The position numbers and the translations under genes are program-made. Under the pieces are notes generated by a model. That model was not told where the DNA came from. It made no database searches and saw only the letters and a program-made list of their open reading frames with translations. Shown one piece after another: positions 20,806-59,538 of a DNA stretch of 64,000 bases; position 1 is the stretch's first letter; each line of letters opens with the position of its first letter. The stretch is taken from positions 5,758,858-5,822,857 of the forward strand of contig NC_087075.1 of NCBI RefSeq assembly GCF_026151205.1, read 5' to 3'. The stretch comes from Bolinopsis microptera. Taxonomy: Eukaryota > Ctenophora > Tentaculata > Lobata > Bolinopsidae.

Positions 20806-22516
20806 GGGGGGGGGGGGGGGGGGGGGGGGGGGTGTCATGTCCGTCTATGTCCGCCTATGTCCTGTCCTTATCAAATTATATACAAATAAAATAATTACAA
20901 ATAAAACAATAAACTCTAACATTCATTACACTCTCTAAAATTAAAATATACAGGATAAAATAAGGAGGAAGAGGAGGAAGGAAAAGGAGGAAGAGGACTT
21001 AGGAGGAGGAGGAGAAGGACTGAGGAGGAGAAGGAGGACCCAGGAGGAGGAGGACCCATGAGGAGGAGGACCCAGGAAAAGGCCCCAGGAGGAGGAGGAG
21101 GACTGGGGAGGAGGAGGACTGTTGAGGACTGATGAGGAGAACTGAGGACGACGAGGAGGAGTAGGAGGAGGACTGAGGAGGGGAGGAGGAAGAGGACTGG
21201 GGAGGATCAGGAAGACCCAGGAGGAGGACCCAGGAGGAGGAGGAGGATTGAGGAGGACTGAGGAGGAGGACTGACGATGACTGAGAAGGAGGAGGACTGA
21301 GGAGCACTGAGGAGGATGGCTGAGGAGGATGGCTGAGGAGGATGGCTGAGGAGGATGACTGAGAGGGAGGAGGAGGAGGACTCAGGAGGAGGACTTAGGA
21401 GAAATGAGAAGGAGGACTGAGGAAAACTGAGGAGGAGGAGGAGGAGGAGGACTGAATAGGAGGAGGAGAAGGAGGGGGACTGGGAGAGGACTGAGGAGGA
21501 GGACTGATGAGAAGGACGAGGAGGAGGACTAAGGAGGAGGACTGAGGACCGAGAAGGAAGCGGAGGAGGATGAAGAGGAGGAGGAGGACCCAGGAGGAGG
21601 AGGACTGAGGAGGACTGAGGAGGATGGCTGAGGAGGATGACTGAGAGGGAAGAGGAGGAGGAGGAGGAGGAGGACTCAGGAGGAGAAGGAGGAGGACTGA
21701 GGAGGAGGAGGAGGAGGAGGAGGACTGAATAGGAGGAGGAGGATGGGGACTGGGGGAGGACTGAGGAGGAGGATGGAGGACTGAGGAGAAGGATGGAGGA
21801 CTGAGGAGAAGGATGAGGAGGAGGACTGAGGACTGAGGAGGACTGAGAAGGAGGAGGACTGAGGAGGAGGAGGAGGAGGAGGAGGAGGACTGAATAGGAG
21901 GAGGAGGAGGGGGACTGGGGGAGGACTGAGGAGGAGGATGTATGACTGAGGAGAAGGATGAGGATGAGGACTGAGGAGGACTGAGGACTGAGGAGGAAGA
22001 GGAGGAGGATGAAGAGGAGGAGGAGGACTGGGGAGGATGACTCAGGAGGAGGAGGAGGACTGGGGAGGAGGAGGACTGTTGAGGACTGATGAGGAGGACT
22101 GAGGACGAGGAGGAGGAGGAGGACTGAGGAGGGGAGGAGGAAGAGGACTGAGGAAGATCAGGAAGACCCAGGAGGAGGAGGAGGAAGAGTAGGAGGAGGA
22201 AGCATCTAAATGTTATTTCCATTTTTGTCCGTTTTTGTACATTTTTGTCCGCTCTATTTTTTGTCCGTTTTGAAAATATAGGGTACCGAACGGACAAAAA
22301 ACATGATCCCCCTATAACAGCAAAAATTGGACATTTTATTTAGCAATTTAGGTGTCTATTAATGTCCGCTAATGTCCGCTAATGTCCGTCTATGTCCGCC
22401 AATGTCCGCCTATGTCCGTCTATGTCCGCCTATGTCCGCCTATGTCCGCCTATGTCCTGTCCTTTTTGGATTTTATGAGACAAGCGGACATAAACGGACG
22501 TGACAACCCCCCCCCC
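20806..22516. mobile_element. G-run/C-run element carrying a GGA array
   Basis: The left end is 27 G then TGTCATGTCCGTCTATGTCC. The right end is GGACATAAACGGACGTGACA, an A, then ten C. These are inverted counterparts of each other. Just inside both ends lie 10-bp tandem units of the type ATGTCCGCCT, two or three at the left and about eleven at the right (22370-22457), all in the same orientation. Flanks share AATAAA on both sides, which may be a decayed target duplication. There is no transposase. The interior is almost wholly a GGA-rich satellite plus about 170 bp around 22200-22370. The architecture matches the elements at 38738 and 54963. Confidence 0.75.
20938..22196. repeat. 1.26-kb purine (GGA)-rich strand-asymmetric array
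   Basis: The + strand is nearly all A and G, built from GGAGGA with GGACTGAGGA and GGACCCAGGA variants. Larger blocks recur, for instance 21640-21900. On the - strand the array reads as serine/proline/leucine-rich open frames of up to 300 codons, which are products of the repeat and not genes. Such mirror-rich polypurine tracts can form triplex DNA. Confidence 0.95.
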
Positions 22517-23679
22517 AATAAACCGTTTTTCTGTAAATTCTTCCCCACTGAAATTTCCGGAGGATTGGAAATGCATGGCCCGGTATTTGAGGACGATGTA
22601 CCTCAATAATTCGATTGCCATCCATTTACACCATTCGTTATGTATATTTAACTAGTGTATTTAACTAGTGTATTTAACTGGTCCCTGTTTCTGTGGTAAC
22701 TGAGTTGTTATAGACTTAAATTTTGTTTATATAACGATCAATAGTGCACCAATTTATTGTTGTTCGCCTAATAATCTAAATTGGGGAGCTGGACAGTACC
22801 TGGTACCTGCTGGGCAAACCAAGTAGGAAATCACATTTCAATTGGGCCTTCCGTCTAAAAGGCCCAATCGATTTGTTGAATAAACAACTAAAGATCTCCT
22901 GTGACAGAGAACAAAAAAACAACAGCCCTTGTATTGGTCACGTTTTGGACAGTTCCTACATTTCCTACATTTCCTACATTTGAACTTGCTTTCCTCAATT
23001 TTTAGATTCCCACACAATTAAGCTGTTAATATGTATAGGAAGGATGGCCGTATTATCAATTGAGAACAGCCACCAGCTGAACTCAAAACTAGTAATATAA
23101 GTTAAATCTAATAAATATCTTTATATCCCGACTAACAATTAATGTACTAACAAGGTGTACTAAGTTGGTACTACTATCACTACAACTATAACCATTACGC
23201 TACTAACAATACACACTGTGACAGTGTGACTAAGTGACACAGTGACTAAGTGTGTGTTAGATTATATTGATACGCTCAACAGCACTAGAAACGCAGCAAA
23301 TGTGCTGCATGGAACGGCTTGGTTAATTTGCTGACAGGATTTATTCTACGCACTACATTATCTAGTATCTAAGTACGCAGAGTGCTATGTTCGTGGGGTA
23401 GACACTAAATTTTACTGGGTGTAGCGCTACCTTATAAAGTGGTTCTGGTTTTCGTAAGGGATCCCATGTCGGATGTTTAATTGTGTTATGTTATTGTTGC
23501 ATTTGGACACAAAGGGAAACATACTTAGTATGAGTTCCTTGTGTACGTTTTGATCAGTTTCGCCAGTTCTTAAATTGATATTTAAATAGAGCGCTACTAA
23601 AAGTAATGTTCATAACATTAACTCACAAGGTAGTTAGTGTGGCGGTTCCTCCGCCCTCGGACCACATAAACATGATAAA
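22517..23679. other. unassigned DNA
   Basis: No gene recognised. There are short duplications, for example AACTAGTGTATTT at 22650-22676. Confidence 0.45.
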
Positions 23680-24010
23680 GGCTAGCTTATCACTATTGTG
23701 ACGGTACATTAGAACTAGAGTCTAGTCTAGTTACTAGACAGAAACAAAGTGTGAAGGGCCTGAACGGAACCCCTCGGTTTCAGTTCCTTGTTTAACACTG
23801 CCGTACAGAAAGGACATCTGAACCGAAAGTAACAGTACTTTCTTGACGAAAGTCGAATACAAGGAAATACTTTCGAGAAAACCTTAGTATATACAACATA
23901 GCTACTTTTGGCAGGGTAGTGTTGGTTATGTGCCTAACCTGGTAAACACAGTAGATATCCTTGCTGTACGGCTAGTTAAACAAGGAATTGAAACTGTGGG
24001 GATCCTTGCA
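23680..24010. mobile_element. foldback repeat, second copy at 52.8-55.0 kb
   Basis: The segment at 23767-23826 (CGGTTTCAGTTCCTTGTTTA, then the CTGCCGTACAG region) is mirrored by 23953-24003 (GCTGTACGG, then TAAACAAGGAATTGAAACTG), a foldback of about 235 bp. The left part, from GTGACGGTACATTAGAACTA to the GGCCTGAACGGAACC region, recurs in reverse complement at 52958-53007 and 54899-54945. There it is split by the hAT-like element at 53008-54898, so the copy here acts as the unoccupied site. Confidence 0.8.
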
Positions 24011-24049
24011 GACCAACCTACCTGTGGCTAAAGCTCAGGGTTGTAATTT

Positions 24050-24425
24050 AAGGTTCTCTCTTTTTTAAGGTTTTATTTCGGTTTTTTTAAAGGTTTTTTC
24101 AGTGTTTCCTGCGGTTTTTAAGGTTGTTTTTTCAGGTTTTCTTTCCGTATCGCAAAAAAAAAGAAAAAAAGTCACAGTTATTTTTTCCAATCCGAGGTAC
24201 ACCTAACTAGGTATGATTTGAGAAAATGCCCATCCAAGGTACACCTTACTAAGTATAATTTGAGAAGATGCCAATTCCGGCTTTTTGAACGCTTTTCAAG
24301 GTTCTCAAAAACTTTTAAAGGTTTTGTTCTCCTTTTTTAAGGTTTTTTGAGCTAAAACCGCTCTTTCTAAGGTTTTTTGGCAATTTCACGATTTTAAAGG
24401 ATTTTTAAAGGTTTTAAGGTCCGCT
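24050..24425. repeat. degenerate AAGGTTTT-rich tract with 44-bp duplication
   Basis: T-rich sequence with many copies of AAGGTTTT. In the middle, GAGGTACACCTAACTAGGTA and its sister CAAGGTACACCTTACTAAGT mark a direct duplication of about 45 bp, each followed by ATTTGAGAAnATGCC. Confidence 0.75.
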
Positions 24426-27400
24426 CCCAACCCTGCTAAAGCTCTAATATACAGAAACAATACATTATGAAAGTGGGAGAGGTTTTTTTTATTGAAATCT
24501 TTCAAATCAGTCAATTACATACAAGTTTACACAATGAATTAGTTAAATATAATATTGTCCTCTAAGCATGGATTGTCAAAGTTGAAATTGTCTCGGACAA
24601 AATGTATGTAACCAAAGGACCTGAGGGTCACCAAAACACAGATATTGAGTGCAAATGCAGCTCCTGCACAAGCATGGGCCCTTATAAAATTGTAATAAGT
24701 TACTTTAAACAAAATCACACACCCATTCAATCAATTCATAAAATATTGTGCTGGTTGAGCTAAGTGCACGTTAGTGCAGGGGAGGGTAAGCAGATCCAGT
24801 CTGGCCACACAATTAATAATAAATCAACTTTACCGGCCTCCTCCTTTCGAGATTTTGCCCCATAATAGCAGAACTGACACCGAAACTTACAAAAATATTA
24901 TTTGATTTTAGTAGCTTACCTTGCTCCCTTCTGGAGAGATAGAGTAGTCATTTTTTGCACTACATGTATTTTCCTAGATTTTGAATATTGTGTTTAATGA
25001 TCGGTTATCTTATCAGTAGATTTTATCAGAGAATTTTATCAGTTTATGTTCACAATGGTACTTCTACAGATAATGGTTATGGTCGAAGTTTAATTAGAAG
25101 CTTTTTTATATGAATAATTTTGTTGCTATTAATAGAATTTTTAGTAAAATCCATGCGTTACAAAATCATGCTTGTTGCCGATCTAATATTTTAGTTAAAT
25201 TATAAACCAAGAAGCAGAAAAGGCGGCCCAATGATTTCATCTGGCCAAAAATCATTACTCTACTGCACTTGATTACATTTTTGTTCAATCGTGACTATTT
25301 TTTGCAAATTTCCATAATATTTCTAATTATACTTTAAATTAAATTTGTCATTTTGCCAACATTGTTTAGTTTTGTAAAAAAATAACGCCTAGTATCTTAC
25401 CATTAGTATTTCGATTATCTAACAAAATTAAAACATTATTAAAGCAACAGCTTCATCGTCTGGAAGCCAAAAGCATATCGTAATGAAATCACAAAGAAGT
25501 GAACAGTCTTCTGTCTAATCGATACGGAAAAAGTTACAGGAAACATGATTACAAAACCGAACTTTGTGCCAAATTCTAATTTGAACAGTTGCTGGCAAAC
25601 AACGTTTAATCCAGCTCCAAACGGTGAAGCCTCCTAAGACTCATCTTTACAGTAGTTATCAATAATTTTAACAACATTTTCGGACAGAACCGATACACGA
25701 TAGTCATTTAAATAGACGGCAGAGATATGATTTAAAATAAATCGATTCCAGCCGGCCGCCAACTTGGCAAACCCAATTTTCTCAAGATATGATTAGGGTT
25801 ACTGTTTGGGTTAGCATTAACCTTACAGTGTACCTTAGTGGCGTTTTGGTTATTCGAACCGTTTTTTAGTATCGCACAGATATTGATGGTGATGGTGATG
25901 GTGATGGTGATGGTGATGGTGTTTTTCTGATCAGGATTTTATTTCTTTCAATTTTCTGGTGGAAAAAGCTCATCAAATTTGCATCAAGATTCAGGAATAG
26001 TGTAAACACTATTCGTGATCATACCCCAGAATACACACAGATTAATCAACCACTTCTAAAACCGGTCATGATCACATGACAACTGATATTGAAACAATGT
26101 CAGTAAGCTTACAATAGGAAATCTCTCGCCGTCACATGACATCATGACATACCACGTGACCTGACACCACGTGATCTAGCCGTATAATTGACAAGTTCCT
26201 GGAACGAGGATTACTGTTTGAATATATCTGCGCTGGATTCCCCCGCGGCTACTCCATTTCCGTCCACATTTTAGTCTGACTTCTTTCTGTCTTGTTGCTG
26301 AGAAAAGTTACTAATACTATGTGTTGCGTAGCCACCTGACTTTTAAAAAAGTCGGCCATAATGAGCAGAAAGTTCCTTCCTATAAGTCCCTTCACGGGAC
26401 TCATATGTTAAAACACCTGAATCACTCGCACTTAGAGCCTTAACCCCTCTTTATAAACTGCTACACTTCAAATAGGTCTTCTTACCCGCGGGAGAAAGAC
26501 AGCCAGGTTGTTGGTGCGGTACGTGCTTACCTACTTACACTCTAGTTCAGAGGTTAGGGTGATTCCCTGCAACACTCTCATAGCTATCGAAATAGAAAGA
26601 GTCGACAACAATGCCAGGACTTCAGCGTAACTCCCAGATAGCACTACATCCAGTGAATATGCGGGGGATATTATATGTACATGCCGGCCTCAACTTTGAA
26701 AACTTGATATTTTCAGCACCTCGTGCTTTTGGTCCATATCTCAACAGGTCGTGGCGGGCAGGAATAGGAGAGCTAAGCGGCGACACTCCGCGCTTAAAGC
26801 AAGAAAGGTATTGTCACTATCTTAGTGGAGTTTGTATTGACAGTTTCAGTCAGTCTTAGTGCGCCACACTAGCAACCAAGTGGCAGTGGCACTGGCAGCC
26901 TGTGGCAGTGTGCAGCAGCCTGTGGCAGTGTGCGGTGTTTTAAAGTTAGTTCTTCCTCTTGTTCCACCTTTTTGAGTAGGGTCTCTTTTCCGTTTTTTTA
27001 ATAATTTACTGTGCTCAAGTTTCTGATGTAGGCTATAGAACTTTCTATATAAGTAATTCTGGGGTGTACTAAACACTTTATTATCTCATTCCGCAGAAAC
27101 TTCCTAATTTTCACCCTGCAGTAAAGCATTAGCAGTTTAAAAAACTTCAAAAATGCGGTACGTAGTCTCGGAGGGACTTGGGTGTTGCTAAAACGTATGG
27201 CTAAGCTGGTCATTTTAGTTTTATTTATAGCATTATTTGTTGCCATAACCTTTGTCTTACTAAATATTTGGACTATTTTCTTAATATTACCCGGCGTCAA
27301 TTTTTGTTAAAACTCCAAGTACCCGCATACGACTCACGAGTTAACGTTACAGTATCAAACATGGTCAAAGATTTTGCTGGTAAGTTCAATCCATTATCCA

Positions 27401-35825: not shown

Positions 35826-38800
35826 GATCTCCTCGACATCTTACTCCCCATTGGACTCCCAAGACATACACGCGACAGATTCACCACCGAACGAGACAGC
35901 CAGTCTCGCGACACATGATATAGCAGCTTCCGCGGGGATTAGAAATACAAACAGATCTATCGGTTACGTTTATCCAAATCAACGGAGGAGATTCAGCGCT
36001 GCAGCCACGCCCTTTCTTAACGAGGACCATGACGGTAAATAATTGCTAGCCTCGAGTGTTATTTTTGACATTTTGCCAGTTGTAACCTAAAGCTGTTTAA
36101 CTGATTGTAGTTTTTATAATTACCTTTTAAATTAATGTTGTTTTTAATTTTGACTAAACGTGTTGTTGGTAGATAGTTTTTGTTTGGGCATCACACTTAA
36201 ATTGTACATCAGACTTTAAAGCTAACTGGGCTTGTAGGATAATCCTACTATAAAATATGTCATCTCCATTTCTGAATGAGGCTAGTCGGGTCTCGGGAGC
36301 CAATTATAATTGTGGCTTTGTGTTTGGAGATTACTTAACTAAAGTCTGGAAAATATTTCAGTTACGTCCATACATAATACTCGATTTACAGGTTATATCA
36401 TAAATCATGAGCCATACGCGATTGGGAGCACGTACAATTATCATGATCTAGCTTATCTGGAACACATCACTGATAACTCTACCAAATCACTGTTGAATCA
36501 TATCTCTAAAATATTTATTTCTGAAATTATCTCAATGATCATTGCATTGATCGGTCAAATAATCATTTCAAATATCTTGCATGATAATTAAACAAATGAC
36601 CACAATGTGATGAGAAATTAAAACGAGGTTTGCGGCATAAAAAGCATATAAAACGTATGACAATTATGAATAATAATTACAACTTAATACTTATTATAGG
36701 TTGCATGTCTAGGTTTTTTCTATTATGTCGAGGGGGAAAAGGTGCAGGAGACCACCTACTCCACGATGGCATCTGATACAATACAATACAATAATACTTA
36801 TTATAAACGTATTATCACTAATTATAAGTTATTATAACATATTATCACAGGGGTGCCCGCAGGGCGGGGTAGCAGGAACCCTCTAATAAAAAGTCGGTCT
36901 ATTGAGGTTGGGATGTTGTCAAAACTAGACGGTCAGGTATGTGCTAACAATTGTAGAATATTCTCACTTACGCACCTGTTATACACTAATACTGTATATA
37001 TATCCTTCATATCCTGGATTAACGTTCTATCAGTACAGCTCACAACTAATCCCAACTAATCACTCGACTTTCTGTGATGTTCATTGTTCAAGTTTAGTTC
37101 AACAGGATATCTCTAAATCTCAGGACAGTTCTAACCAGGAATCGCGATTTTTCCTATTATTTGCGAAAAATTTTATGTATAGTCTTATGTATAGTCTGTT
37201 AAAAATCGCGGTATCGCGATTTTTGGGCAAAATAATCGCGATTTACTTTTGTCCCTGGTTCTAACGAATACAACTCAGGTTCTCCATTTCATAAACGGGG
37301 AGATTCAGAAACCACCTCACACTAAGAGTCACGCAGACAGGATCATCTTTAATGTGAGCGGGAAAAGATTTGAAACTACGTTTGAGTGCTTGAACGGGTA
37401 AGATAACACAAGAGATAAGAGATAAGAGATAAGAGATAAGATAAGAGATAAGAGATAAGAGATAAGAGATAAGAGATAAGAGCTGACCACTTAAGCTTAA
37501 TAAACTTAGGGCGGAGAAGAATGCTATAACAATTTTAAAGTGTTTTGCTGTCTGCACCGCCCTCAAAATCAAATCACTTTGCAAATTACAATTCTCTAGT
37601 TTCTAAACAATCTTCCAAACCACTTTCACTGTACAAAGTTTAGTATGCAACGAGAATATGCTTAAAAACATAGTATGCATAATAAAAGTATATAATGCTC
37701 AATGTAAATTAATAATGTCGTCAGGCATACAATTAAGATTTTAGCTCCTTGGCTGGTAATTGGTATGGTTATTAATGCTTTTCATACAAAGTTACAACAA
37801 ATTCTTCGTGTTATACATCCTGGGTTTGGACAGGATATGACCCGTTTAAAATATTTCCATCACGTTACATAATTCTCAATTAATGTAATAGATTTGTAGT
37901 GTTGTAATTAGTTTAAAATGATACTAAAAACTACTCCAGAGTTTCTTGTTTCACGTGTAACCCTCAGAACATTAATCGACTAAATTTGACAATGTTTTTA
38001 AATTCTGATCCTTCCAGACACGGTGGAATCGATAAGCCAACCTCCCTAGGCGTGAATAATCATTCATTACATTATATAGGGCGTCAATTGGGCATGGCGT
38101 CAATTGCTTTACCTTCACGAGAAGTTTTACAGCGACACCAATTATGCTGATCGAGCGGAAATATCAATAATTGATTTTAATCATATTAATGTGATGGGGT
38201 GGGCTTTTCTATTTTAATCTACTTAATAAACTAGGATAAGATCAACTTGATGAATGATGAGCAATCAGAAGTATGCTTATTTTGCGGAGATCATTACGTC
38301 ATGAGATGCTTAATTAATATTATATTAAATAATATTATATTAATTAATATTATATTAAAATATATACACTATATTTGATAATTGATAAAGTCAGTCAATA
38401 ATCATAACTTGAAATGGGCCAAGAAATATAAGCAACAATTCATGTCAAAATATTATAAATTTCGTACGTGCTTGATCTGAGGGTTATCGAATATTATTTT
38501 ATAAAAGTAAAATACTATTGCAGCTTCCCTGATACCCTACTCGGCACAGAAGAGGATAGAAAAAAGTTCTATGACCCAGTGAGGGACGAATACTTCCTTA
38601 ACAGAAACCAGGTAAGAAAAATTACAAATCACATTCTTTATAAACGAGTTAGTAACTAATTCTAAGTTCACATAACAAATCATTATCAAATCTCGGAAAT
38701 AAGACAGTTTCAGGTCCTTTTGGGATCTGGAAATGAGGGGGGGGGGGAACCAACGGGCATTAATGGGCATTAATGGGCATTTATGGGCATTAATGGGCAT

Positions 38801-41800
38801 TAATGGGCATTAATGGCAGTGGCAGTCTGTGCAAAATTTTAAAATACTGCCATTAATGCCCATACTTTTTTATTCGCTTTTGAAACTTTCAGGTCACGTC
38901 TATTTCATACCTACAATAAATATCCTGTCTACAGACCTTATTAAAGGTTCATGACGCCCAAAAATAACCCACCCTTATATTTTAATATATTGTTGTTATG
39001 TAACATATAACTAAGATTAGTCAAAACCGGACCTTTTTATCTGCTTCCTATCCCGAGATATTGGGAGATCTAATTATGCTCCCCACCGAGCTTGTGACGT
39101 CACGTTTGTGCCCACCTTGCTTGGTTAAAATAACACTGCTCCTACAGCTATAATAAGGTTGTTTCTGTTGTTTCTGACATAAATTAGGTTGCCCCCTCTC
39201 CAGGTGACCAAGAGCTTAGGGTAGCGCGACAATTGACCCCCCGACAATTGACCCCCCGACAATTGACCCCTTATGTAATTACACTGGGGTCAATTGTCGC
39301 AAAATCTAGGGTTTAGTACGAAAATTGACCCCCCGACAATTGACCCCCCGACAATTGACCCCTTATATAATTACACTGGGGTCAATTGTCGCGAAATCTA
39401 GGGTTTAGTACGACAATTGACCCCCCGACAATTGACCCCCTATGTAATTACGCTGGGGTCAATTGTCGCGAAATCAAGGGCTTAGTACGAAAATTGACCC
39501 CCGACAATTGACCCACCATGTAATTACACTTGGGTCAATTGATCGAGTTAGGGTCAGGATCCTAGGTCAGGGTCCTAGGTCAGGGTCCTGGGTCAGGGTC
39601 CTGGGTACGGTCAGGGCCCTGGGTTAGGGTTAGGGTCAGGGTCAGGGTCAGGGTCAGGGTCCTGGGTCAGGGTCCTGGGTTAGGGTCAGGGTCAGGATCA
39701 GGGTCAGTGTCAGGGTCAGGGTCAGGGTCAGGGTCAGGGTCAGGGTCAGGGTCAGGGTCAGGGTCAGGGTCAGGGTCAGGGTCAGGGTCAGGGTCAGGGT
39801 CCTGGGTCAGGGTCCTGGGTCAGGGTCCTGGGTCAGGATCAGAGTCAGGGTCAGGGTCAGGGTCAGGGTCAGGGTCAGGGTCAGGGTCAGGGTCAGGGTC
39901 AGGGTCAGGGTCAGGGTCAGGGTCAGGGTCCTGGGTCAGGGTCATGGTCAGGGTCAGGGTCAGGGTCAGGGTCAGGGTCAGGGTCAGGGTCAGGGTCAGG
40001 GTCAGGGTCAGGGTCCTGGGTCAGGGTCCTGGGTCCTAGGGTCAGGGTCAGGGTTATGGTTAGGGTCAGGGTTAGGGTCAGGGTCAGGGTCAGGGTCAGG
40101 GTCAGGGTCAGGGTCAGGGTCAGGGTCAGGGTCAGGGTCAGGGTCAGGGTCAGGGTCAGGGTCATGGTCAGGATAAAGGTTAGGGTCAGGGTCCTGGGTC
40201 AGGGTCAGGGTCAGGGTCAGGGTCAGGGTCAGGGTCCTGGGTCAGGGTCAGGGTCAGGGTCAGGGTCAGGGTCAGGGTCAGGGTCAGGGTCAGGGTCAGG
40301 GTCAGGGTCAGGGTCAGGGTCAGGGTCAGGGTCAGGATAAAGGTCAGGGTCAGGGTCCTGGTCAGGGTCCTGGGTCAGGGTCAGGGTCAGGGTCAGGGTC
40401 AGGGTCAGGGTCAGGGTCAGGGTCAGGGTCAGGGTCAGGGTCAGGGTCAGGGTCAGGGTCAGGGTCCTGGGTCAGGGTCAGGGTCAGGGTCAGGGTCCTG
40501 GGTCAGGGTCAGGGTCAGGGTCAGGGTCAGGGTCAGGGTCAGGGTCAGGGTCAGGGTCAGGGTCAGGGTCAGGGTCCTGGGTCAGGGTACGGTCAGGGTC
40601 CTGGGTCCTAGGGTCAGGGTTATGGTTAGGGTCAGGGTTAGGGTTAGGGTTAGGGTTAGGGTCAGGGTTAGGGTTAGGGTTAGGGTTAGGGTTAGGGTTA
40701 GGACTTAGGGTTAGGGTCAGGGTTAGGGTCAATTGTCGGGGGGTCAATTGTCGCCCACCCGAGCTTAGCCAGCAAGGCTATGGGTCATGCGATACTGATA
40801 CAGACGAAGAAGGATCATACATCCCGGAAGGATCTCGCCTCAGTGCTCTAGTACCGATTGAAAGCTGGTGCTCATGTGGTCTGCGTATTAGATGCCATCT
40901 GAGATAGAGAACTACTACTGTCGAGAAAGCACGTGTCTCATGGTTTCGATTTTTCTATTAAATATGGGCATTAATGTGCATTAATGTGCATTAATGGGCA
41001 TTAATGGGCATTAATGGGCATTAATGGCAGTGGCAGTCTGAACAAAATTTTAAAATACTGCCATTAATGCCCGTTGGTCCCCCCCCCCCCCCCCCCCCCG
41101 AAATGAGACTTTTCTTGCCATGTTTTTTAATTTTTTTATAAATCTTTCTCTCTTCACTTTTGTAAATGTATTGTTAAACCTGAACAACCGCTAAACAACC
41201 AGCTATACCCGTTCTAACCGCTCTAACCGCTATGATATCCAGGTAGCGTTTGACTCGGTGCTCTACTACTATCAATCCGATGGTGAGATCTACAGGCCAG
41301 CTAACATACCTGAAAAAGTTTTTAGCAGAGAAATCGAGTACTACCGGTATGTGTCCTACCTATATATGCACTTGTACTCGTTCAAATGTACCCACATTTT
41401 TAAGTCTGGGAATGGCAAAAATTTCGTGAATTCGTGAATATATATATTACATAGAATTTAAGTTTTTCCTGGATTTCAGGTAAAGTATCACGCTGAAGTC
41501 CTTTAATTTTCTTTACACAAATCATGCGCCAATAAATTAAAGCCCAACCCTCATGTCTCGTTGCATCAGTAACAAGAATTACACGGGTATAAAGTAAACA
41601 CACGGAATTTCAGGCTGTTTCCCTCGAAGCCGGCTGAATCTATCGCCACTTCAACAATCCGACAAAACGGGTTCTGGAAGAGATTCCAGCTTTTACTATG
41701 GGTTTGTAAATTTAAGAGTTTGGTAAAATTGTAGTTAAATATAACTTTCTCTCTGTACTAATCTAATAAGTTAAGTCATCTGATGACCCATAAATAGGAG

Positions 41801-44800
41801 CCATACAACTTTTATTTTACTTATTATTAACACCATGATTTAACTTATTTTAAGTTATTAATGATTCGGTAACCTGCTAAATGTATTAGCGATTATCCGG
41901 TTTTGAGAGGTGTGACTGTGATTTAACAACCTCCCAACTTAAAAACCTCCCAACTTTGTTACCTTATAAATAAACTCAACAATAAAAAAATTATAGTAAA
42001 CTGATCATCCCATCTAACCATAATATTGATTTCAAATACCTATTATAAACAAAATAAATAAAAATGGTCTCTGTTTCAGTTGTTCCTGGAAAAACCACAA
42101 TCGAGCTCCGGAGCCCGTATTTGGGCCTCCCTCAACATCATAATAATTCTGATATCAGTCTGCAATCTTATTAGCGAGAGCATGCCTGTGTACAGGTAAC
42201 CTATATTATATTGCTATTAATAATTAACTAATAACTAACTAATTAATTACTAATTACTAGTTAATCACTAGATAATATTATTATATTAGTGAGAGCATGC
42301 CTGTGTACAGGTAACCTATATTACTATATTAGTAACTTATATTAGATCATTTAATATTATCGTGTAAACTAGCAATCTACTTAAAGTAGAGTGTTAGAGT
42401 GCAGACGTCCGTAGGATTTGAAAAGCCACTCCTGCAATGATATCTTATTCTATATTAGATCGTTACACTTTAACAATGACACGTTTAATGCCGTTTTTGC
42501 TTCAAGTTAAATATAGATTTTTGCCTTGTACTATCACGGAGACCGATTAAATGCGGCTATTTTTAATCTCCTGATCATTAAGCTCAGTCGTCATAGAAAA
42601 AGTCAGATCAACTTTCTTTAAAGTTAAACATTAAAACCATCAAGGAGTCTAGAGTTTGATCTACTAGACCCTACCTTGACAGTTATGATATTGAGTATTA
42701 GAATTTAGTATTAGAATTATTAGCTTGAACTGATTTCTTATTTCACAAGACTCAAGAGTTTCTTACCTCAGGCATAATCCAGAGGCAGAAAGAATTTTCT
42801 TCTCCGTAGATGCGTGCTGCGTTTCTTATTTTACTATCGGTAGGTATTTTAAATGGATTATATTAAAGTATCAATTTATACTTGTAGCTTTAATGATGTT
42901 ATGCAAATGAGAATTGTCTCTAAAAAATAATAATATTCATTTCTGGATAAAATTCTTGAAATAACTTCAAGATTAAAATTTCAAGAGTAAGGCATGAAAT
43001 TGAAGATTTACATTTCCGCCGGAGAATAAACACGGGACCATCATTTTCAGACATATTATTAAGATTTAGCTCATCGCCCTCAAAAAGAAAATTCCTAAAA
43101 GAAGTATTAAACTGGTTCGACATGCTAGCGGTGTTGCCATTTTATGTAGAGCTACTTTTGGGGGAGAACTCCGGGACTGATGGCATGATGGCTCTCAGAG
43201 TACTCAGACTTTTTAGAATAACCAGGGTTCTCAAACTTATCAGGTAATATCCGTTATTATATCTGTATTTTCCTTTTATATTTATATCGTTAAGAATTAT
43301 TATATCCTGCTACAGCGTTAATCTGTCTATCCTGTATCTGAGTATTTCCTGTTTGTCTATTACTTGTGCGCTAAAAATCTAATACGTTTATTTAGAGATA
43401 TTTAGAGTTTATTTAGAGTTTCTCGCGATGGCTAAATTGAAGAATTCAGACTCCTAAATGCTAAAACTTGCGTTGAATTGAAAATAATGTACATTAAACC
43501 ATATGCCGCCTGTCTTTGAGCCAATGCACATTGTGCATTGCACAATGGGTCTGTCTGGGGTCCCGTCTGTTTGCCTGTCTGCCTGTTTGTCAAAATATTT
43601 ACTGCAACCAATAAAATAGGAAAGACAGCCACTCTGGAGTCGAGTGATGACATAAAGTTGCACAGCTCTCAACTTAACAAGTCCTTTTTGAAAGCTATAT
43701 CGTATAAGTGTCGTTAAGGGGGGGGGGGGGGGGGGGGGGGGGGAGCCACTCCCATATTTGGTCCAAATTAGGCCCAATTTAGCCAAATACCCTGAACATG
43801 CCCAAAACCCAGGTTTATAGCCGGTTACCCCCTAATTGTGTGCTTGTCTCCTTGAGGGTGAATAAGGGACTTCAGCTGGTTTGACACTTTTATATTCGGA
43901 AAATCTGTATTGTGTTAAAAGATTGTGGGGTTATCAGCGTACCACATTCCAGGGATTTTACTGACTGACACTAAGAGCGTCTGGGCCAATGGGTCAAACA
44001 TCGCTGTAGAGTGTAGGGCCCGTCTAGAACTGGTCAAGAAGTAAGAACCAGTCTTGAATTGGATTATACCCGATCTTTAAAACCAGCTTAACTCTTAAGT
44101 GTATTGAATCGAAATCATTTGCAGTAAAATCCAGTCGATCCGGACACACAGGTCACAGTCGGATCTTGCCACAAAACTTAATATACCCTATACCCTTTCC
44201 ACCGTTTGTTGTAACTTTGTAAGGAAGTGTGTTCACCTGTGTACGTGTGTTTTAGTGTTTGTTAAGCTGTTTGTATGTCAGTGCGTTTAATTGTTTGCTT
44301 GTGATTGTCCATAACGACCCCCTTCTCCTCAGGCACTCTCAACAGATGATGTTGATGCTGCTGGTGTTAAGGAACTGTTTTAGTGAGCTGGGAATCCTCT
44401 TCTGTACCTGGTTGATGGGAGCCTTGGTCTTCGGTACTATCATGCACTACATAGAGGTAAAACTAAACTTGTAAAACTAAGCTTGTGAAACTTGGTATTA
44501 AATTAACCCACATATTATTTTAATTTAGGTGTTGTTATATTATTAGGGATATATTTGTTAACAACTTGCTATTACTCATTTGGTTAACATTTTAACCCGG
44601 GGTTAAGTATTGCAGGGGTTTTATGGCATTATAACCGTGTCATTAATCATACCAACTAAGATCTGACTATTTGTAAGACATGTTATGTTACCAATAATGC
44701 TTTTAAGAAAACTAATTATAATTTTCCCAGGTGGACGCCGATAGTGGCTTCGACTCAGTCCTCTATGCATGCTGGTGGGCCGCCGTGACCATGACAACCG

Positions 44801-47890: not shown

Positions 47891-47940
47891 TGAATTTAGG
47901 TAAGATACTTCCACAATAGTTCCGGTGAATCTGGTTTACT

Positions 47941-48200: not shown

Positions 48201-48204
48201 GGAC

Positions 48205-51293: not shown

Positions 51294-51990
51294 TTAGAAA
51301 TAACTAACAGATAAACAGGTTTCCAAATACCGCTCTAGTTTAGCTGCTGCCTGGTTTCTAGTTATAATATTCAACAAAAATATATACGTCTTGTCAGAAA
51401 GTAGAGCGGACACCAAAGGGATGCACTTCTTATCGATGACAGCGTGGATAGAGTAACTCTGTGGGATATCCTAAGGCAGACATATTACGTTCCATCGGCA
51501 ATCCAAATAGGGTTGTCTCCGAGGATTTTGAGGTTCCGAGGAGTAGAGAAGAGTATCATTCTGGATCCATCGTCAGTCACTCCGTCAAAGAGGACGAAGA
51601 TCTCCTCTCTCAGTGAAGTCTGGCAAGTAGGTGGTAGGACGAAGTCTGTTGAGATAGGTGCTTCGGAATGATTGGCAGATCCGGACTTTGTTGCTCGTGA
51701 TCTTTGGACAATTCTCGCGAGGGACTCTAGTTTTGGTAGTTCCACGTTGATTTCGGGTGGGCATGTACGGCTTCGGTGAGGAGGTTTTGTGTTGCTGAGA
51801 GGTGTTGGTCGGCAGCTTTCCGCTTCAATTCTGCTCTGAACTCTGCTTTCTCAGCTACTAAGACACGGTTTACTGGTGTTTGTGAGTAGTGAGCTACTAG
51901 TTCACTAATGATGCAGCTTGGTAATATTGACCCCAGGCAAAGACCTGCAACCTATTCGCCCCATTCACCCAGCCTCATAATATGGCCAAG
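51294..51990 (-). pseudogene. broken MULE/FLYWCH-type transposase
   Basis: Minus-strand segments in different frames line up with one transposon protein: VAGLCLGSILPSCIISELVA and KAEFRAELKRKAADQHLSAT first, then NVELPKLESLARIVQRSRAT, then LREEIFVLFDGVTDDGSRMI with NPIWIADGT, then (after a frameshift) IDKKCIPLVSALLSDKTYIF, ending at a stop near 51294. The WIADGT block followed by a PLVSALLxDKTxxxY-like block is typical of the MULE transposase core found beside FLYWCH zinc fingers. At least two frameshifts and an internal stop make it inactive. Confidence 0.7.
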
Positions 51991-52069
51991 TCAACTGGGG
52001 ATCTTACCCTTTTTAAGTGAGTGGGCTTACCTCAACTAATGGTATTGTAGTAGCGAATAGCCTGTTGTG

Positions 52070-52300
52070 ATCTGTATTCTCGGCTTCCTCCTTTAATCAC
52101 ATAATCCTCCCGGCTGTTAGAGGGTCATTACACCATTACGCCGCAAACACTAAACTAGGTCCAACTCCAAAGAAATGGAATAAAAATAGAACAACAGTGC
52201 AGCAAGACTCTTTTATTATTTCTACTGTCTCACGCTTAGTTTGCCAGTTCGTTTGCTTTTAGTTTATCAGAATGAAATTCAAATACACTTGCCCTGAAAA
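52070..52300. repeat. dispersed repeat shared with 46430-46700
   Basis: Direct-orientation copy of the repeat near 46.5 kb, with TCTCGGCTTCC, AATCACATAATCC, AATAGAACAACAG and AGTTCGTTTGCTTTTAGTTT in the same order. Non-coding. Probably part of an unclassified transposon family. Confidence 0.7.
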
Positions 52301-52999
52301 AAATGGGAGCTCTAGCTACACTCAGTTGACTGAGATATTTATAAAGATTATAAACCCAGCAAATGATAATTCTATGGGTATTTGGGGGCGGTAATTTTGG
52401 AAAAAAAGGCTCACAGATCCATTTTGTTAAAGCCTTTTCAATTTTAGAGTATCATGTTGACTAGTATAGACTAGTATAGACTAATATAGACTAATATAGA
52501 CTAGTATAGACTATTATAGACTATTATAGACTATTATAGACTAGTATAGACTAATATAGACTAGTATAGACTAATATAGACTAGTATAGACTAATATAGA
52601 CTAGTATAGATACTCTTATTTCTAGAGCCCCATATCAACAGGACTAATAGAGTCCCATAGAGTAATAGCATTGCCGTACGACTGTAATAACACCCTTGTC
52701 AATTGTCATCATCTTACTATAATATATAAAGCGAGACGATATATGAAACTATGCGTGGTGTAGCTTGTTGGGATAGTATAGGAATTCTAGTTCCTATAGT
52801 TGGGAATGAGGTAGTTGTCTGTTCACAGATCGCCCTCTAAACTTACAAGGAAATATTTCCTGTATATCCTTGTTATATATACTATATTAGCAACATTTGA
52901 CAAAGCATAGTGTGGAGTGAGCTATGTTCCCATAGAGAACCCGGTGGATGTCCTTGCTGTACGGCAGTGTTAAACAAAGAACTGAAACCTAGGTGTTCC
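52301..52999. other. 10-bp array and foldback-repeat copy
   Basis: TAGTATAGAC and variants repeat about 16 times at 52458-52615. The last 50 bases (52958 on) belong to the foldback family also seen at 23680-24010. Confidence 0.8.
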
Positions 53000-53007
53000 G
53001 TTCAGGT

Positions 53008-54898
53008 TAGGCTATCCACTCCGATAATCATAACCGATAATTGTCTCCGATAATTCGTTTAAAAAAGTTATCTGTTTATCTAGATAAAACATATTTTTAT
53101 CGGTATAAAAATTCACTAGATATTATCGAAAATACTGCCACAATACCGTACAATTGTAAAGAACTATTAGTGTTTTTGCCTTCCCAAGTAATCCAAGAAA
53201 CAGTCCCAAACGTCTTCTAGTATAATAGAAGAGGTAATTTACTTAGATGTGAGCTTAAGAGGTTTATTTACATTTGTATACCTATGGAACTGTAGAACTG
53301 TATGAACTGTTGAAATCCAGAGAAGGTTATTGACATTGTTCTCTTGTATTGAGGTACTGGCGTTTTACCTTATAATCATTCTGGAGATGGGAACGAGCAT
53401 GTTACTGTTAACAAGAGTCAAAAATACCGGCAGGGCACTCAATTGAATTCCGTAAGTGTTCTGGGCGTGAAACATTGTCTTCAGGAGAAGGAATCTGTTG
53501 CTCCAAGTTATCAACAGAATAAGAAAACGGTTCACTGAATCACTTTAAATGCTTTACTGTTTCGAGGAGATTTGGTATTTGGTGCACTACTGTTCTCAGG
53601 AGAAGGAAACCGTTGGTCTACTGTTTTGAAGAGAACTAGTACACTACTGTTCTCAGGAGAAGGAAACCGTCTGTCTACTGTTTTTGAAGAGAACTGGTAC
53701 ACTACTGTTCTCAGGAGAAGGAAACCCTAGTCCCTAGGTCTACTGTTTTGAAGAGAACTGGTAGTACACTACTGTTCTCAGGAGAAGAACACCGGTGGTC
53801 TACTGTTTTGAAGAGAACTATTGCGTTACTGTTCTCAGGAGAAGAAAAACGGTGGTCTACTGTTTTGAGGAGAACTACTAGTGCGTTACTGTTCTCAGGA
53901 GAAGAAAACCAGTGGGGTCTACTGTTTTGAAGAGAACTACTGCGTTACTGTTCTCAGGAGAAGGAAACCGTCTGTCTACTGTTTTGAAGAGAACTGGTAC
54001 ACTACTGTTCTCAGGAGAAGGAAACCCTAGGTCTACTGTTTTGAAGAGAACTGGTAGTACACTACTGTTCTCAGGAGAAGAACACCGGTGGTCTACTGTT
54101 TTGAAGAGAACTATTGCGTTACTGTTCTCAGGAGAAGAAAAACGGTGGTCTACTGTTTTGAGGAGAACTACTAGTGCGTTACTGTTCTCAGGAGAAGAAA
54201 ACCAGTGGGGTCTACTGTTTTGAAGAGAACTACTGCGTTACTGTTCTCAGGAGAAGGAAACCGTTTGTCTACTGTTTTGAAGAGAACTGGTACACTACTG
54301 TTCTCAGGAGAAGGAAACCCTAGGTCTACTGTTTTGAAGAGAACTGGTAGTACACTACTGTTCTCAGGAGAAGAACACCGGTGGTCTACTGTTTTGAAGA
54401 GAACTATTGCGTTACTGTTCTCAGGAGTAGAAAAACGGTGGTCTACTGTTTTGAGGAGAACTACTAGTGCGTTACTGTTCTCAGGAGAAGAAAACCAGTG
54501 GGGTCTACTGTTTTGAAGAGAACTACTGCGTTACTGTTCTCAGGAGAAGGAAACCGTCTGTCTACTGTTTTAAAGAGAACTGGTACACTACTGTTCTTAG
54601 GAGAAGAAAACCGTTTGTCTACTGTTTTGAAGAAAACTGGTGCACTTCTGCTCCCCGGAGAAGAAAACTGATGCTCTAATATTTTCAAAAGAAAGGAAGT
54701 GGTACTTTAAAAAGATTACTGGTAAACAGTAATAAAAGTCGACAATTAGTTTTTGCGAAATTTGGAAAACATTTTGGCTTTGGCCTTCACCATAAAAATT
54801 ATCGGTTTTATCGGTTTTATCTAGATAAAACCTAAATCTTTATCTGTTTATCTAGATAAAAGATTTCATACCGATAATGGATAGCCTAGTTCAGGTCC
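53008..54898. mobile_element. hAT-like non-autonomous element
   Basis: Perfect 10-bp terminal inverted repeats TAGGCTATCC...GGATAGCCTA are bounded by the 8-bp target duplication GTTCAGGT (53000-53007 and 54899-54906). TATCTAGATAAAA and CCGATAAT motifs recur near both ends. An 8-bp duplication and a TAG-type tip fit the hAT superfamily. The host sequence is a foldback repeat whose copy at 23.7 kb is uninterrupted at the same position, which confirms the boundaries. The interior is a tandem array, without transposase, so it depends on an enzyme coded elsewhere. Confidence 0.92.
53560..54690. repeat. 58-bp units in a 293-bp higher-order repeat
   Basis: Units of about 58 bp (GTCTACTGTTTTGAAGAGAA, then TACACTACTGTTCTCAGGAG, then AAGGAAACC) are organised in blocks of five. 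The block of 293 bp is repeated, for example at 53912 and 54205. Frames through it (VLKRTxxLLFSGE) stay open but are repeat artefacts. Confidence 0.93.
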
Positions 54899-56093
54899 TT
54901 CACACTCTGCTTTTGTCTAGTTCTAATGTACCGTCACAATAGTGACTTTAATATATCTAATAGGGGGGGGGGGGCCAATGGCATAAAATGGCATAAAATG
55001 GCATAAGATGGAGACTTTTTCTATGGAGAAAATGGAAAAACCCATGAGTAATTCTCCATTTTCTCCATTTTATGCCATGAATTTTGTCTTCGAAATTTCA
55101 TCTTTAACACCATTTAACACCTAAATTGGACATCCTAACATGTTTATTTACGCTTACTAGGGGCGTAACAAGCTTTTTGAAAGCTCATAGTAGGCTACTA
55201 GATGCTTATACTAGGTTAGTAGAGGCACACTTCAGGCAAACTCATAATTACTCAAGCCTAGTGTAAAGTTATTTCTACAGGCTACAGCAGGAGTGAGTAA
55301 TAGGGGAGAGTAATAGGCACTGAGAAGTGAGACCTACAATCTACATCCTCGACAGTCGAAACAAGCTCGCACTGCAAAGGGGAGGCCTGCCTTCCGAGAT
55401 CACATTACCAGGGGAAAGCCTCGAGTCCAAATTTGTGTATCGAGGGGTAGGTGCAGACTTCGATAAACCGAAAAACCAAAAAAATATTTTCGGCTTATAA
55501 TGAAGAGGGTAGCATGAAACGTGGAGAAAAGTGGTTTTTAGAAAAACTTTGAAAAATTTTGACTTAGAAAATTTTCGGCCCGAGTCATTCTCGATACGTA
55601 CCTCTCGTATCGAGAGCTCCCGATTCCGAGCTCGTGTTGCAAAGGGGAGGCCTGCCTTCCGAGATCGCATTACCAGGGGGAAGCCTCGAGTCCAAAATTG
55701 TGTACCGAGGCGTAATTTTCTAAGTCAAAATTTTTCAAATTTTTTCTGAAAACCGCTTTTCTCCACGTTTCATGCTCCTCTGTTCATTATTGGCCGAAAA
55801 TATTTTTTCGGTTTTTCGAAGTCCACACCTTCCACAATTTTGGACTCGAAGTAATGCGATCTCGGAAGGCAGGCCTCCCCTTTGCAACACGAGCTCGGAA
55901 TCGGGAGCTCTCGATACGGGAGGTACGTATCGAAAATGACTCGGACCGAACATTTTCTAAGTCAACATTTTTCAAACTTTTCTGAAAACCACTTTTCTCC
56001 ATGTTTCATGATACTCTGTTCATTATTGGCCGAAAATATCTTTTTTTTAAATAATTTTTCTCGAAATTCTAAATTTTTCAGGTTTTCAATGGC

Positions 56094-56173
56094 ATAAAAT
56101 GGCATAAAAAAATGGAAAAACCTATGAGTAATTCTCCATTTTCTCCATTTATGCCATTGCCCCCCCCCCCCCC
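56094..56173. mobile_element. internal extra right terminus
   Basis: TCAATGGCATAAAATGGCAT, then the same hairpin block and CCATTTATGCCATTG with 14 C, duplicate the outer right end at 59295-59433. Its right flank (AAGCAGCA) does not match the outer target duplication, so this is not a simple separate insertion starting at 54963. Confidence 0.8.
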
Positions 56174-57370
56174 AAGCAGCAAATGTTATATTTTGAGGGC
56201 TATTTTCTTTGTCGAGATCGAGAGGGACGGGCCTAATAAGTAAGGACATATCCTTTATATGCAACCATATGAAGCATCGCATATCACATTGGCCTATCGT
56301 TTCCGCCGTATAGTGGCCTCACTTTATACTGGTGACCTTATATTGAATAACATTACAGCTTTAAGTTTAGGGACGCAACACTCGCCATTTTCTTACATCT
56401 CTTGCCTGGCGGAGTAAGTCTACCATCTCGTACCTAAAAATAGAGTTATTCCACCAACCAGAGCTCTCAGAGTTAATTAAGAAAGCGAGGTTACGATTGG
56501 CTTAGGGCAATGGTTAGTAAACATCCGGGTTAATGCGAAGCATCTTCTGTAGCATTAAATGAGGACAAGCTCTCTAGTCTATATTGCGATCACTACATCT
56601 TAGTTTAACCGTATGAGTTTGTGTTCAATTCAACAGCTCTCACACTATATGATTGTTTGTGATGTGACATAGACATCATAAACTTTCGCACAGACAGGAA
56701 TTCAATTCGAAAACATTTGACCATCTTGCACAAGCAAAAGGCCTAAAAGCAATTTGGCAACAGAGATCATAAAATTATATGTTAGGGCTTGGCAACAGGT
56801 GAAATAAGTGTAAATTGTAGGCACTCGGAAAAAATTTCGGATATTTGCTTTCAAGATTAATATCTTACAATGAGAAATGATAAATCTAGTCAAGTTTCGT
56901 TGTACAGTGAACTTCAAGTCTGGCCACCAAATAATGGGAAACTTCCTCGCTTCCCGCTACACTGGGAAGCTAACTGCAATCCTGCTATTCCACCAGGAAG
57001 CTTTCTCTTCTAACCTTAAAAGCTTAAAGATAATGATGTAGAGGGGGATGATTAGTAGAGGTGGTTAGCAATCTGATCGTTGCGATGTAGCAGAAAAAAG
57101 CAAACCAAAGAGCGCAAAAAGTGATTTATAACCAAATTCAGAAAATTGTCTTACCCATCACCTGACGGCTGACACCTATGTACCGTGTGCTTCCGGATTT
57201 ATTCTGGAAACCCATATTGGAGGAGACCACCCGATCCACAACTGCAACTTGATAACTTTAGCGCAAAAATTGGCAAACAAAAGACCAAAGTAGGTGTCCA
57301 ATTTATATCTTTCCTTGAACGTGTGTAGCCAAAATGACTGATGCATGTTTGTCAATATCTCTACAACTAA

Positions 57371-58609
57371 ACATTTAAGGGTTTATATTGCTTTATCAAA
57401 AGGAAGACACGAGCCGCTACTAAAGCCCTGCGTGACGCCACCCTCAAAGTCAGAGAGGTCGAGACGAGTATACAAGAACAGTTTGTGAACAACCAAATCG
57501 ACCAGGTTGATCAATTGTTCATGCCGCAACCCATAAACAACCCAGGGTTTGCACCATGGCAGACAAAGTCAAACAGTTCCGGTATCGCGTGGAAACTAAT
57601 TAATGATCTGACAGATCGTAAACCTAAATCTATGTCACCTCTACCTGGATATAGAAACAAGGCAGAACGATCAAAGGCGTGGACTGACCACTACAGCAAA
57701 CTGCTCTACAACCCTGCTGACTCCACCAGAATGAACAGCATCAGAATGGACAGCATTGATGTTTCTGAACCAGAGCTCCCTATTCTGACGTCTCCATTCA
57801 CAGCAGATGAACTATCAACAGCCCTTAAGCAGACAAAGGACACGTATGGTCATGACGGCATACCTTCGCTTCTTTACAAGTGTGTTGACTTGAACACCAC
57901 GTTACTCTCCTTGTTCAACAACATGTTGGCCACTGGTAAAGCCCCGGAAGAACTGCTTGTCACCGCGATTCTCCCTATACCGAAAGGTGCTAAAAGGTTA
58001 TGTCCTGAAAACAGCAGAGGCATATCCATCCTTCCTGTTGCCACCAAGATCTACAACAGGCTGCTTCTCAATCGTATCAGAACTCATATTGAACCTCGCT
58101 TACGGTACAACCAGAATGGTTTCCGTCCTGGAAGGGGCACTCGTGAACAGATCTTGGCCCTTAGGCGAATAATTGAAGAAGTCATCAACTTCCAGCTCCC
58201 CTGCGTCATCTCCTTCATTGATTTCTCTAAGGCGTTTGATTGCATCTTTAGATCTCATCTTCCTAACATTCTGGCGTCCTATGGCTTCCCTAAGATAATA
58301 ATCAAAGCCATTATGTCCCTTTACATCAACACCAAAGCCAAGATCATGACCCCTGAAGGTACAACTCTTGAATTCCTGACCAACCTTGGAATTCTCCAGG
58401 GCGATGTTCTTGCTCCGCTTATCTTCATTATCGTCCTGGACTTCATTCTTAGACTGGCAATAGGTCCACACGATGGGCTTAAAGTAGGTTGTGATTACAT
58501 AGCAGATTTGGACTTCGCCGATGACTTAGCTACAATCACACCCAGCTTCAGCGATAAAATTGTGAAGGTGTGGACTTCGAAAAACCGAAAAAATATTTTC
58601 GGCAAATAA
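57371..58609 (+). pseudogene. truncated non-LTR reverse transcriptase
   Basis: A frame open from 57371 (after TAA) to 58609. It reads RATKALRDATLKVREVETSI-like helical sequence, then RT motifs in order: PKG near ILPIPKGAK, RGISILPVATKIYNRLLLNR, NQNGFRPGRGTREQI, the first catalytic block FIDFSKAFD, GILQGDVLAP, and the active-site FADD at about 58518-58529. Order and spacing fit LINE-type reverse transcriptases. Shortly after FADD, at 58567, the frame runs into the flanking transposon repeat (KVWTSKNRKNIFGK), so the thumb and C-terminal parts are lost. The endonuclease part is also missing; related coding sequence may exist at 57150-57290. Probably inactive. Confidence 0.85.
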
Positions 58610-59538
58610 TGAACAGAGTAGCATGAAACGTGGAGAAAAGCGGTTTTCAGAAAAAATTTGAAAAATTTTGACCCAAAAAATATTTTCGGCTTATAATGAA
58701 CAAGGTAGCATGAAACGTGGAGAAAAGTGTTTTTCAGAAAAACTTTGAAAAATTTTGACTTAAAAAATTACCCCTCGGTACACAATTTTGAACTCGAGGC
58801 TTCCCCCTGGTAATGCGATCTCGGAAGGCAGGCCTCCCCTTTGCAACACGAGCTCGGAATCGGGAGCTCTCGATACGGGAGGTACGTATCGAAAATGACT
58901 CGGACCGAACATTTTTTAAGTCAACATTTTTCAAACTTTTCTGAAAACCACTTTTCTCCATGTTTCATGATACTCTGTTCATTATTGGCCGAAAATATTT
59001 TTTCGGTTTTTCGAAGTCCACACCTTCCCCTCGATACACAATTTTGAACTCGAGGTAATGCGATCTCGGAAGGCAGGCCTCTCCTTTGCAACAGGAGCTC
59101 GGAATCGGGAGCCCTCGATACGGGAGGTACGTATTGTAAATGACTCGGACCGAACATTTTCTAAGTCAACATTTTTCAAAGTTTTTCTGAAAACCACTTT
59201 TCTCCATGTTTCATGATACTCTGTTCATTATTGGCCGAAAATACATCTTTTTTTTTAATAATTTTTCTCGAAATTCTAAATTTTTCAGGTTTTCAATGGC
59301 ATAAAATGGCATAAAATAGCATAAAATGGCATAAAATGGCATAAAATGGAGACTATTTCTATGGAGAAAATGGAAAAACCTATGAGTAATTCTCCATTTT
59401 CTCCATTTATGCCATTGGCCCCCCCCCCCCCCCATCTAATATATATGTTTTCCGTACCATTTTACTGACACCACGGTATCAACTTTAGCACGACTTTCCG
59501 CAAAAACCTTAAAAGATATACAACTTAAACTTTTTTGA

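Follow-up and report, generated by a model that had tools for sequence, protein, structure and literature searches.

Transposons of the Merlin superfamily are described as having GG ends, target duplications of 8-9 bp and internal tandem repeats (PMC8101967, in excerpt). In Drosophila, three complete copies of Tetris have 8-9 bp duplications; this element has no known helper gene and has fed satellite DNA (PMC4079207, in excerpt), and the tandem repeats of Galileo hold further transposase sites (PMC3688188, in excerpt). The coral CMITEs are non-coding families of miniature inverted-repeat transposable elements (MITEs) that also form tandem arrays (PMC2872659, in excerpt). Here, these systems are compared with elements that begin with a run of G and end with a run of C (G-run elements) in the genome of the ctenophore Bolinopsis microptera (264.65 Mb, 232 contigs). 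Three of them lie in a 64,000-bp stretch, C4:5758858-5822857 (C4 is contig NC_087075.1), which is referred to as the window; these elements and their relatives elsewhere in the genome are very probably non-autonomous cut-and-paste transposons.

Among other groups, hAT transposons produce 8-bp duplications and their ends normally begin with CA or TA, long terminal repeat (LTR) retrotransposons have TG...CA ends and duplications of 4-6 bp, and sea urchin TU elements are foldback-like. In the accepted view of DDE transposases, the position of the cut is fixed with respect to the site that the enzyme binds. As far as the excerpted descriptions go, the foldback-like elements Tetris, Galileo and TU resemble the G-run elements in having tandem repeats near their ends; Galileo is a precedent for subterminal tandem units as transposase sites, and Tetris is one in that it is non-autonomous, makes duplications of 8-9 bp, seeded satellite DNA and has a helper that was not found. 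In contrast to the long inverted repeats of foldback elements, the end modules of G-run elements point the same way and inversion is confined to the tips, and no G-run tips appear in the excerpts that describe Tetris, Galileo and the CMITEs. The hAT MITEs are likewise small and non-coding with 8-bp duplications, but have CA/TA tips rather than G. A first-pass annotation of the window had named no described family with this combination of features. Among the open-access papers listed, for some queries a small fraction of those retrieved, no title or abstract opening mentions G-run-tipped transposons (Repbase and subscription journals were outside this search). The elements behave as non-autonomous terminal inverted repeat (TIR) transposons.

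Architecture of the three elements in the window

Elements 1-3, assigned to families F1-F3, share the G-run...C-run design with 10-bp units that the first-pass annotation had proposed: the runs were located, and the units were recovered with Tandem Repeats Finder (TRF), whose consensus units for the three elements are given in differing rotations. The window contains nine runs of at least nine bases, seven of which are ends of elements 1-3; those at 5589 and 43718 are not. The first of the latter two belongs to a palindromic 58-bp sequence at 5544-5601, GGGGGGTCCAAAAGTCAG...CTGACTTTTG-C13, which looks like a minimal G-run element and has no target duplication.

The features of element 2 are:

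38730-38737, no strand assigned: left target duplication GAAATGAG, the last G of which is the first G of the run
38737-41099, no strand assigned: element 2 (F2), running from a G11 tip with a CCAAC box through GGGCATTAAT units, a hairpin and an interior of GGTCAG satellite to the second module and a C21 tip
38755-38861, + strand: left module, unit-type end, direct match to 40966-41072 (95.3%)
40966-41072, + strand: right module, hairpin-type end, identified by its direct match to the left module and by its fold
41100-41107, no strand assigned: right target duplication GAAATGAG, exact over 8 bp

The features of element 3 are:

54955-54962, no strand assigned: left target duplication ATCTAATA, exact over 8 bp
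54963-59433, no strand assigned: element 3 (F3), a composite that starts with a G12 tip, a CCAAT box and GGCATAAAAT units, continues with an inner right end and a retroelement passenger, and closes with the outer right end and a C15 tip
54977-55078, + strand: left module, direct match to 59315-59415 (95.1%)
56087-56173, + strand: inner right end with its own C14, identified from the runs and by module comparison
57977-58546, + strand: reverse-transcriptase passenger (RVT_1, PF00078, E = 1.8e-21) within an open frame at 57371-58606
59315-59415, + strand: right module, identified by its direct match to the left module and by its fold
59434-59441, no strand assigned: right target duplication ATCTAATA, exact over 8 bp

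In element 2, the terminal runs occupy 38737-38747 (G11) and 41079-41099 (C21), and the 10-bp units found by TRF are GGGCATTAAT (6.2 copies, 38755-38816) and ATGGGCATTA (6.4 copies, 40964-41027). The modules match directly over 107 bp, while the outer tips match in inverted orientation over 30 bp (96.7%). Element 3 is bounded by G12 (54963-54974) and C15 (59419-59433), its TRF unit is AATGGCATAA (3.5 copies at 54977-55011 and 5.5 copies at 59295-59349, 10 bp each), and its modules are direct over 102 bp while its outer tips are inverted over 39 bp (92.3%). Thus, the same-orientation modules and inverted outermost tips that had been noted for these two elements were recovered, as were their 8-bp duplications. 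Because the inner right end of element 3 has its own C14 (56160-56173), the part at 54963-56173 alone (1,211 bp) is comparable in size to a regular F3 copy, as the remaining duplication-bearing F3 copies span 143-1,598 bp, a 4,812-bp copy excepted; ATCTAATA flanks only the outermost pair of ends. A tandem array of 57-bp units (18.9 copies, 53582-54693) lies shortly before this element.

Element 1 is represented by two features:

20806-22516, no strand assigned: element 1 (F1), running from a G27 tip through ATGTCCGCCT units, an interior of AGG-rich satellite and further units to a C10 tip
22361-22506, + strand: right module, a 10-bp unit array and imperfect hairpin (TRF, fold)

Its runs are located at 20806-20832 (G27) and 22507-22516 (C10), and TRF finds the 10-bp unit AATGTCCGCC in 9.7 copies at 22361-22457; the short left unit array is absent from the TRF list. 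The modules are direct over 33 bp (97.0%) and the outer tips inverted over 33 bp (90.9%). Unlike elements 2 and 3, element 1 has no CCAAY box beside the run, and its flanks share only AATAAA (6 bp) with no exact 8-bp duplication. Folded as single DNA strands, five modules are more stable than their shuffled versions (z = -3.5 for 22400-22506, -5.2 for 38750-38866, -6.6 for 40964-41078, -4.1 for 54975-55087 and -6.1 for 59294-59418).

The three unit types first distinguished are real, but there are more: five families were read, and other tip types exist beyond these (e.g., G-run CCAAC and G-run CGCCAAC). F1 has ATGTCCGCCT units, F2 GGGCATTAAT units with sub-families that begin AACCAACGGGC, TACCGACGGAC and ATACAACGGTC, and F3 GGCATAAAAT units. 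F4 (ATATTTGTAG) occurs in locus L026, where an F3 copy is nested inside it, and F5 (TCCAACCCGAT) in L044 and L094. The L094 element, 3.7 kb long, contains AGG/TCC satellite and a TTTTTGTCCG block, both of which are also found in element 1. The unit length is 10 bp in F1-F3 according to TRF and in F4 by eye, and a CC[A/G]A[C/T] box lies on the inner side of the run in F3, F5 and two of the three F2 sub-families, with the 10-bp units and an imperfect hairpin further in. At L039:1410-1830 an F2-type element seems, by eye, to lie inside an F1-type end near GGACGGGACGG repeats. Another 10-bp unit, GACTAGTATA, is repeated about 15 times at 52459-52610 of the window with no G-run nearby.

Copies, target duplications and end runs in the genome

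The F1 tip has 912 candidate places in the genome (the 40 that were scored are 96-100% identical) and the F3 module 539 (95-100% identical for 40 scored), while the F2 module gave 71 matches of 74-100% identity from 40 scored of 70 candidate places. Loci were fetched by F2/F3 tips or Merlin genes and are therefore a non-random sample. In the window and loci L001-L092, each run of at least six G was paired with each run of at least six C located 20-6000 bp downstream; L001, L031 and L037 (all of which repeat the window) were left out, and L002 was joined with L091. Exact duplications of 7-9 bp were found at 27/106 pairs, compared to 0.45 expected per shuffle of the flanks. Their length is 8 bp in 21 rows, 9 bp in four and 7 bp in two; the 27 rows represent 25 distinct elements, as L006 and L028 as well as L034 and L036 were double-counted. 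One further element, L030, with duplication GGCCGCTT, was removed from the pair count by the composition filter. The outcome that had been named in advance as speaking against a shared design, i.e., variable ends without 8-bp duplications, did not occur, and these copies with paired runs support the initial view of mobile elements that share one architecture and have passenger interiors. The joined locus L002/L091 holds the 4,812-bp F3 copy (duplication ACTTGCAT).

The polarity of the elements is fixed: each of the 24 F2/F3 elements tested has one unit-type end (U, box-unit-unit) and one hairpin-type end (H, box-unit-hairpin arm). In all 21 elements with two modules the modules are more similar in direct than in inverted orientation, while the tips are inverted, and the remaining three are solo copies with a single module. 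All three of the latter have duplications (L020, 143 bp with 8 bp; L047, 152 bp with 7 bp; L053, 153 bp with 8 bp). As the module is repeated at both ends without inversion, recombination between its two copies could yield a single-module copy that retains both tips; this route, as for solo LTRs, is probably the simplest account.

The runs, which touch the duplication, vary from 6 to 32 bases (median 13) in 26 elements with duplications, and the lengths at the two ends of a copy are uncorrelated (r = -0.10); in L029 and L034 a single T interrupts the run. Because of this variation and lack of correlation, the homopolymer itself could be the transposon end, with cleavage at the border between the G-tract (perhaps a G-quadruplex) and the target rather than at a fixed distance, or with the tract re-made at each insertion. 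We consider this improbable; slippage after insertion is the plainer account. Nevertheless, homopolymer ends of 6-32 bases against the duplication require either rapid post-insertion slippage or another end-finding rule, and if the homopolymer were the end, these families would represent a radiation with a common end chemistry that is not known for DDE transposons.

A single context resembling an excision footprint was seen among 100 run contexts (0.26 expected per shuffle) and is not used as evidence: at L078:2786-2808, G23 followed by TTC stands between two 11-bp copies of ACTCAGATTAA. Two further 6-bp candidates were rejected as run artefacts.

For the families studied, it is barely credible that the runs arose as microsatellites by chance next to ordinary repeats: runs of at least nine G or C are indeed common in the genome (34,518, where about 100 per strand are expected by our estimate from the window composition), but the duplications found greatly exceed expectation and in each case the run lies between duplication and element. 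At C1:803048-804462, 23 runs of at least nine G occur within 1.4 kb, mostly 53-62 bp apart, like a tandem array of G-run units.

Candidate transposases and rival explanations

A full copy that codes for a transposase, which had been suggested as a target of the search, was not found. The interiors of 28 elements (element 1, the 24 polarity-tested F2/F3 elements, the F4 copy in L026, and the elements of L094 and L002/L091) contain 50 frames of at least 90 amino acids, excluding frames with at least 20% of one residue, i.e., most satellite-coded frames. Pfam searches of these frames revealed no transposase domain, including DDE_Tnp_IS1595, hAT and P (no genome search was aimed at P); the sole match above the cut-off is RVT_1 in element 3, and the few lines below it, from other families, are at chance level. 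Inspection by eye of frames of at least 150 amino acids in L001-L060 and of at least 90 in 17 loci identified no transposase, and nine Merlin domains searched with tblastn against the window and the non-Merlin loci recovered nothing but the separate Merlin of the window. Frames in the 4,812-bp F3 copy appeared Penelope-like by eye, yet matched no Pfam family. The lack of a transposase in the interior frames suggests movement in trans.

In the mechanism that we envisage, a DDE transposase supplied in trans would bind the box and the repeated units, join the two ends and cut at the outer edge of the G-run, such that anything between two ends (satellites, retroelement pieces or another element) would be carried along. 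The 10-bp units may plausibly be repeated protein sites at helical-turn spacing. The explanation as a whole, with cut-and-paste elements for which Merlin is the likeliest driver, is on balance probable. The specific proposal that a Merlin transposase (IS1595-like, of a superfamily related to IS1595 and IS1016) drives the elements is tentative, a leading candidate and not a finding.

The genome contains 58 Merlin matches (PF12762) among 63 candidates, with frames of up to 481 amino acids, and one Merlin element, separate from the G-run elements, lies partly in the window:

60604-64000, no strand assigned: left part of the window Merlin element, a candidate for the kind of helper; the element continues past the window edge, with its right end at C4:5824311

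Its transposase frame (63341-63952, - strand, 203 amino acids) matches PF12762 with E = 2.5e-15, its target duplication is CATAGTAG (60596-60603, by eye), its tip is GGCAACTTGGTCGTTTACCTCCGGAC and its subterminal arrays consist of 11-bp units, GTCTATGCAAC and CCGGCTACTAG (TRF). It also carries GACAATTGACCCCC repeats like those within element 2. The observation of this element refers to L073 and L093 as well as to the window.

Merlin resembles the G-run elements in its 8-9 bp duplications (25/27 G-run rows), and in its 5'-GG terminus, although trivially so because G-run tips were selected for G. Several of the genome's Merlin lineages also have a box with short units. The Merlin tips read GGCAACTTGTACGAACA-CCGAT (lineage A), GGTAACTCGGTAATCTG-CCGAT (B) and GGCAGTCTACAAGAAGC-CCGAC (C) and, by eye, GGCTAACAGGTCAAAGA-CCGAC (E, L074 alone) and AGCAGTATCCAGATAGC-CCGAC (L078); short repeats follow in every case. 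The form is GG-N15-CCGAY in lineages A, B, C and E (the last by eye) and AG-N15-CCGAC in L078, which places the box 17 bp from the end. A TIR with an 8-bp duplication was found by script at 4/30 Merlin loci within the fetched flanks; duplications are verified for C-type copies and the window copy only, whereas the A and B ends were set by copy divergence, A-like tips also by inverted pairs around Merlin matches. The form GGYA-N13-CCGAYSG occurs 212+117 times compared to 88+97 in the control, a modest excess, and inverted pairs of it flank Merlin matches on C4 (twice), C5 and C6 (once each). With the C tip as query, 20 candidate loci were found and no large MITE family behind it. The motif G9-N0-3-CCRAY occurs 965 times and the reversed pattern that served as control 231 times (each tip counted once, on one strand; counts on the other strand, 2609 vs 629, are inflated by overlapping starts). 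Among the C1 places listed, CCAAT and CCAAC tips predominate, which indicates that the box goes with the run; a Merlin origin of the box is not thereby demonstrated.

The G-run elements differ in having a variable G-run where Merlin has GG-N15. Their tips are inverted over 30-39 bp including the run, followed by direct modules, which speaks neither clearly for nor clearly against a Merlin TIR of 24-462 bp. A number of observations weigh against Merlin as the driver. A bridging form with a Merlin-type outer tip and an F2 unit, GGNA-N13-CCRAYGGNCATTAAT, has no match on either strand. None of the G-run elements found contains a Merlin gene, as expected for non-autonomous copies, but no full copy was found either, and 30 Merlin loci include no G-run...C-run pair with a duplication (1.5-kb flanks miss some tips). 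The exact CCRAY box is absent from element 1 and from the ATACAAC sub-family of F2, and F4 has CCAAG; the window Merlin itself has no CCGAY, and only about 6% of long G-runs are, by our estimate, followed by CCRAY. The units differ in length, 10 bp in G-run elements compared to 11 bp in the window Merlin (TRF) and about 11 bp in lineages A, B and E (by eye), and the arrays of the window Merlin are inverted (by eye) where the G-run modules are direct. Finally, hAT transposases outnumber Merlin (365 vs 63 candidates).

For 40 places per family (F1, F2 and F3), proximity to the two transposase types was assessed within 6 kb, with 58 matches for Merlin and 150 for hAT. Merlin is found near F2 once (1.5 kb, with Merlin outside the element as judged from orientation) and near F3 once (4.2 kb, the window's own), where 0.11 are expected per family.

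A so far undescribed superfamily of transposases for which G-runs are the proper tips is an unlikely alternative to Merlin. It would account for the lack of a transposase in any examined copy, and to our knowledge no family matches the tip design of variable homopolymer and direct modules; KDZ gave no genome matches, a weak result since the control genomes gave none either. Against it, there is overlap with Merlin of the same genome in the size of the duplication, the GG end, the box and the subterminal arrays. Somewhat more doubtful is a hAT-type transposase, for which the G-runs would be an odd hAT tip. The G-run elements do have the hAT duplication size, PF05699 yielded the 150 scored hAT matches from its 365 candidates (some in frames of 513-530 amino acids), and one pair each was found with F1 (0.6 kb) and F2 (5.8 kb), where 0.27 are expected per family. 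However, the 0.6-kb match lies outside the F1 element, as judged from orientation, the G-run tips start with G rather than CA or TA, and the interior frames contain no hAT domain. It is very improbable that the elements are retroelements, LTR-like or other, whose terminal repeats are short and direct: direct end modules, solo copies and the reverse transcriptase inside element 3 would fit, but inverted G/C runs form the outer tips in place of TG...CA, the duplications are 8 bp, not 4-6, and the reverse-transcriptase match is confined to one of the 50 frames.

Host gene and carried DNA

Element 2 resides in an intron of a potassium-channel gene. Pieces of exon lie on either side of it (about 38525-38611 and about 41243-41347); the second of these matches BTB_2, and the TVGYGD pore exon at about 44731-45039 matches Ion_trans. 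The run at 43718-43743 (G26, followed by AGCCACTCCCATATTTGG) lies between exons of this gene and has no C-run partner in the window.

The passengers carried by the G-run elements comprise satellites and retroelement pieces, and the modular ends suggest how satellite arrays and retroelement pieces move around the genome and how single-module copies arise. In Mnemiopsis, a DNA-transposon insertion is reported for more than 90% of the promoters that form loops (PMC12221973, in excerpt). The G-run families bear on ctenophores, the clade of these transposon-holding promoters, although their membership among those insertions is not claimed.

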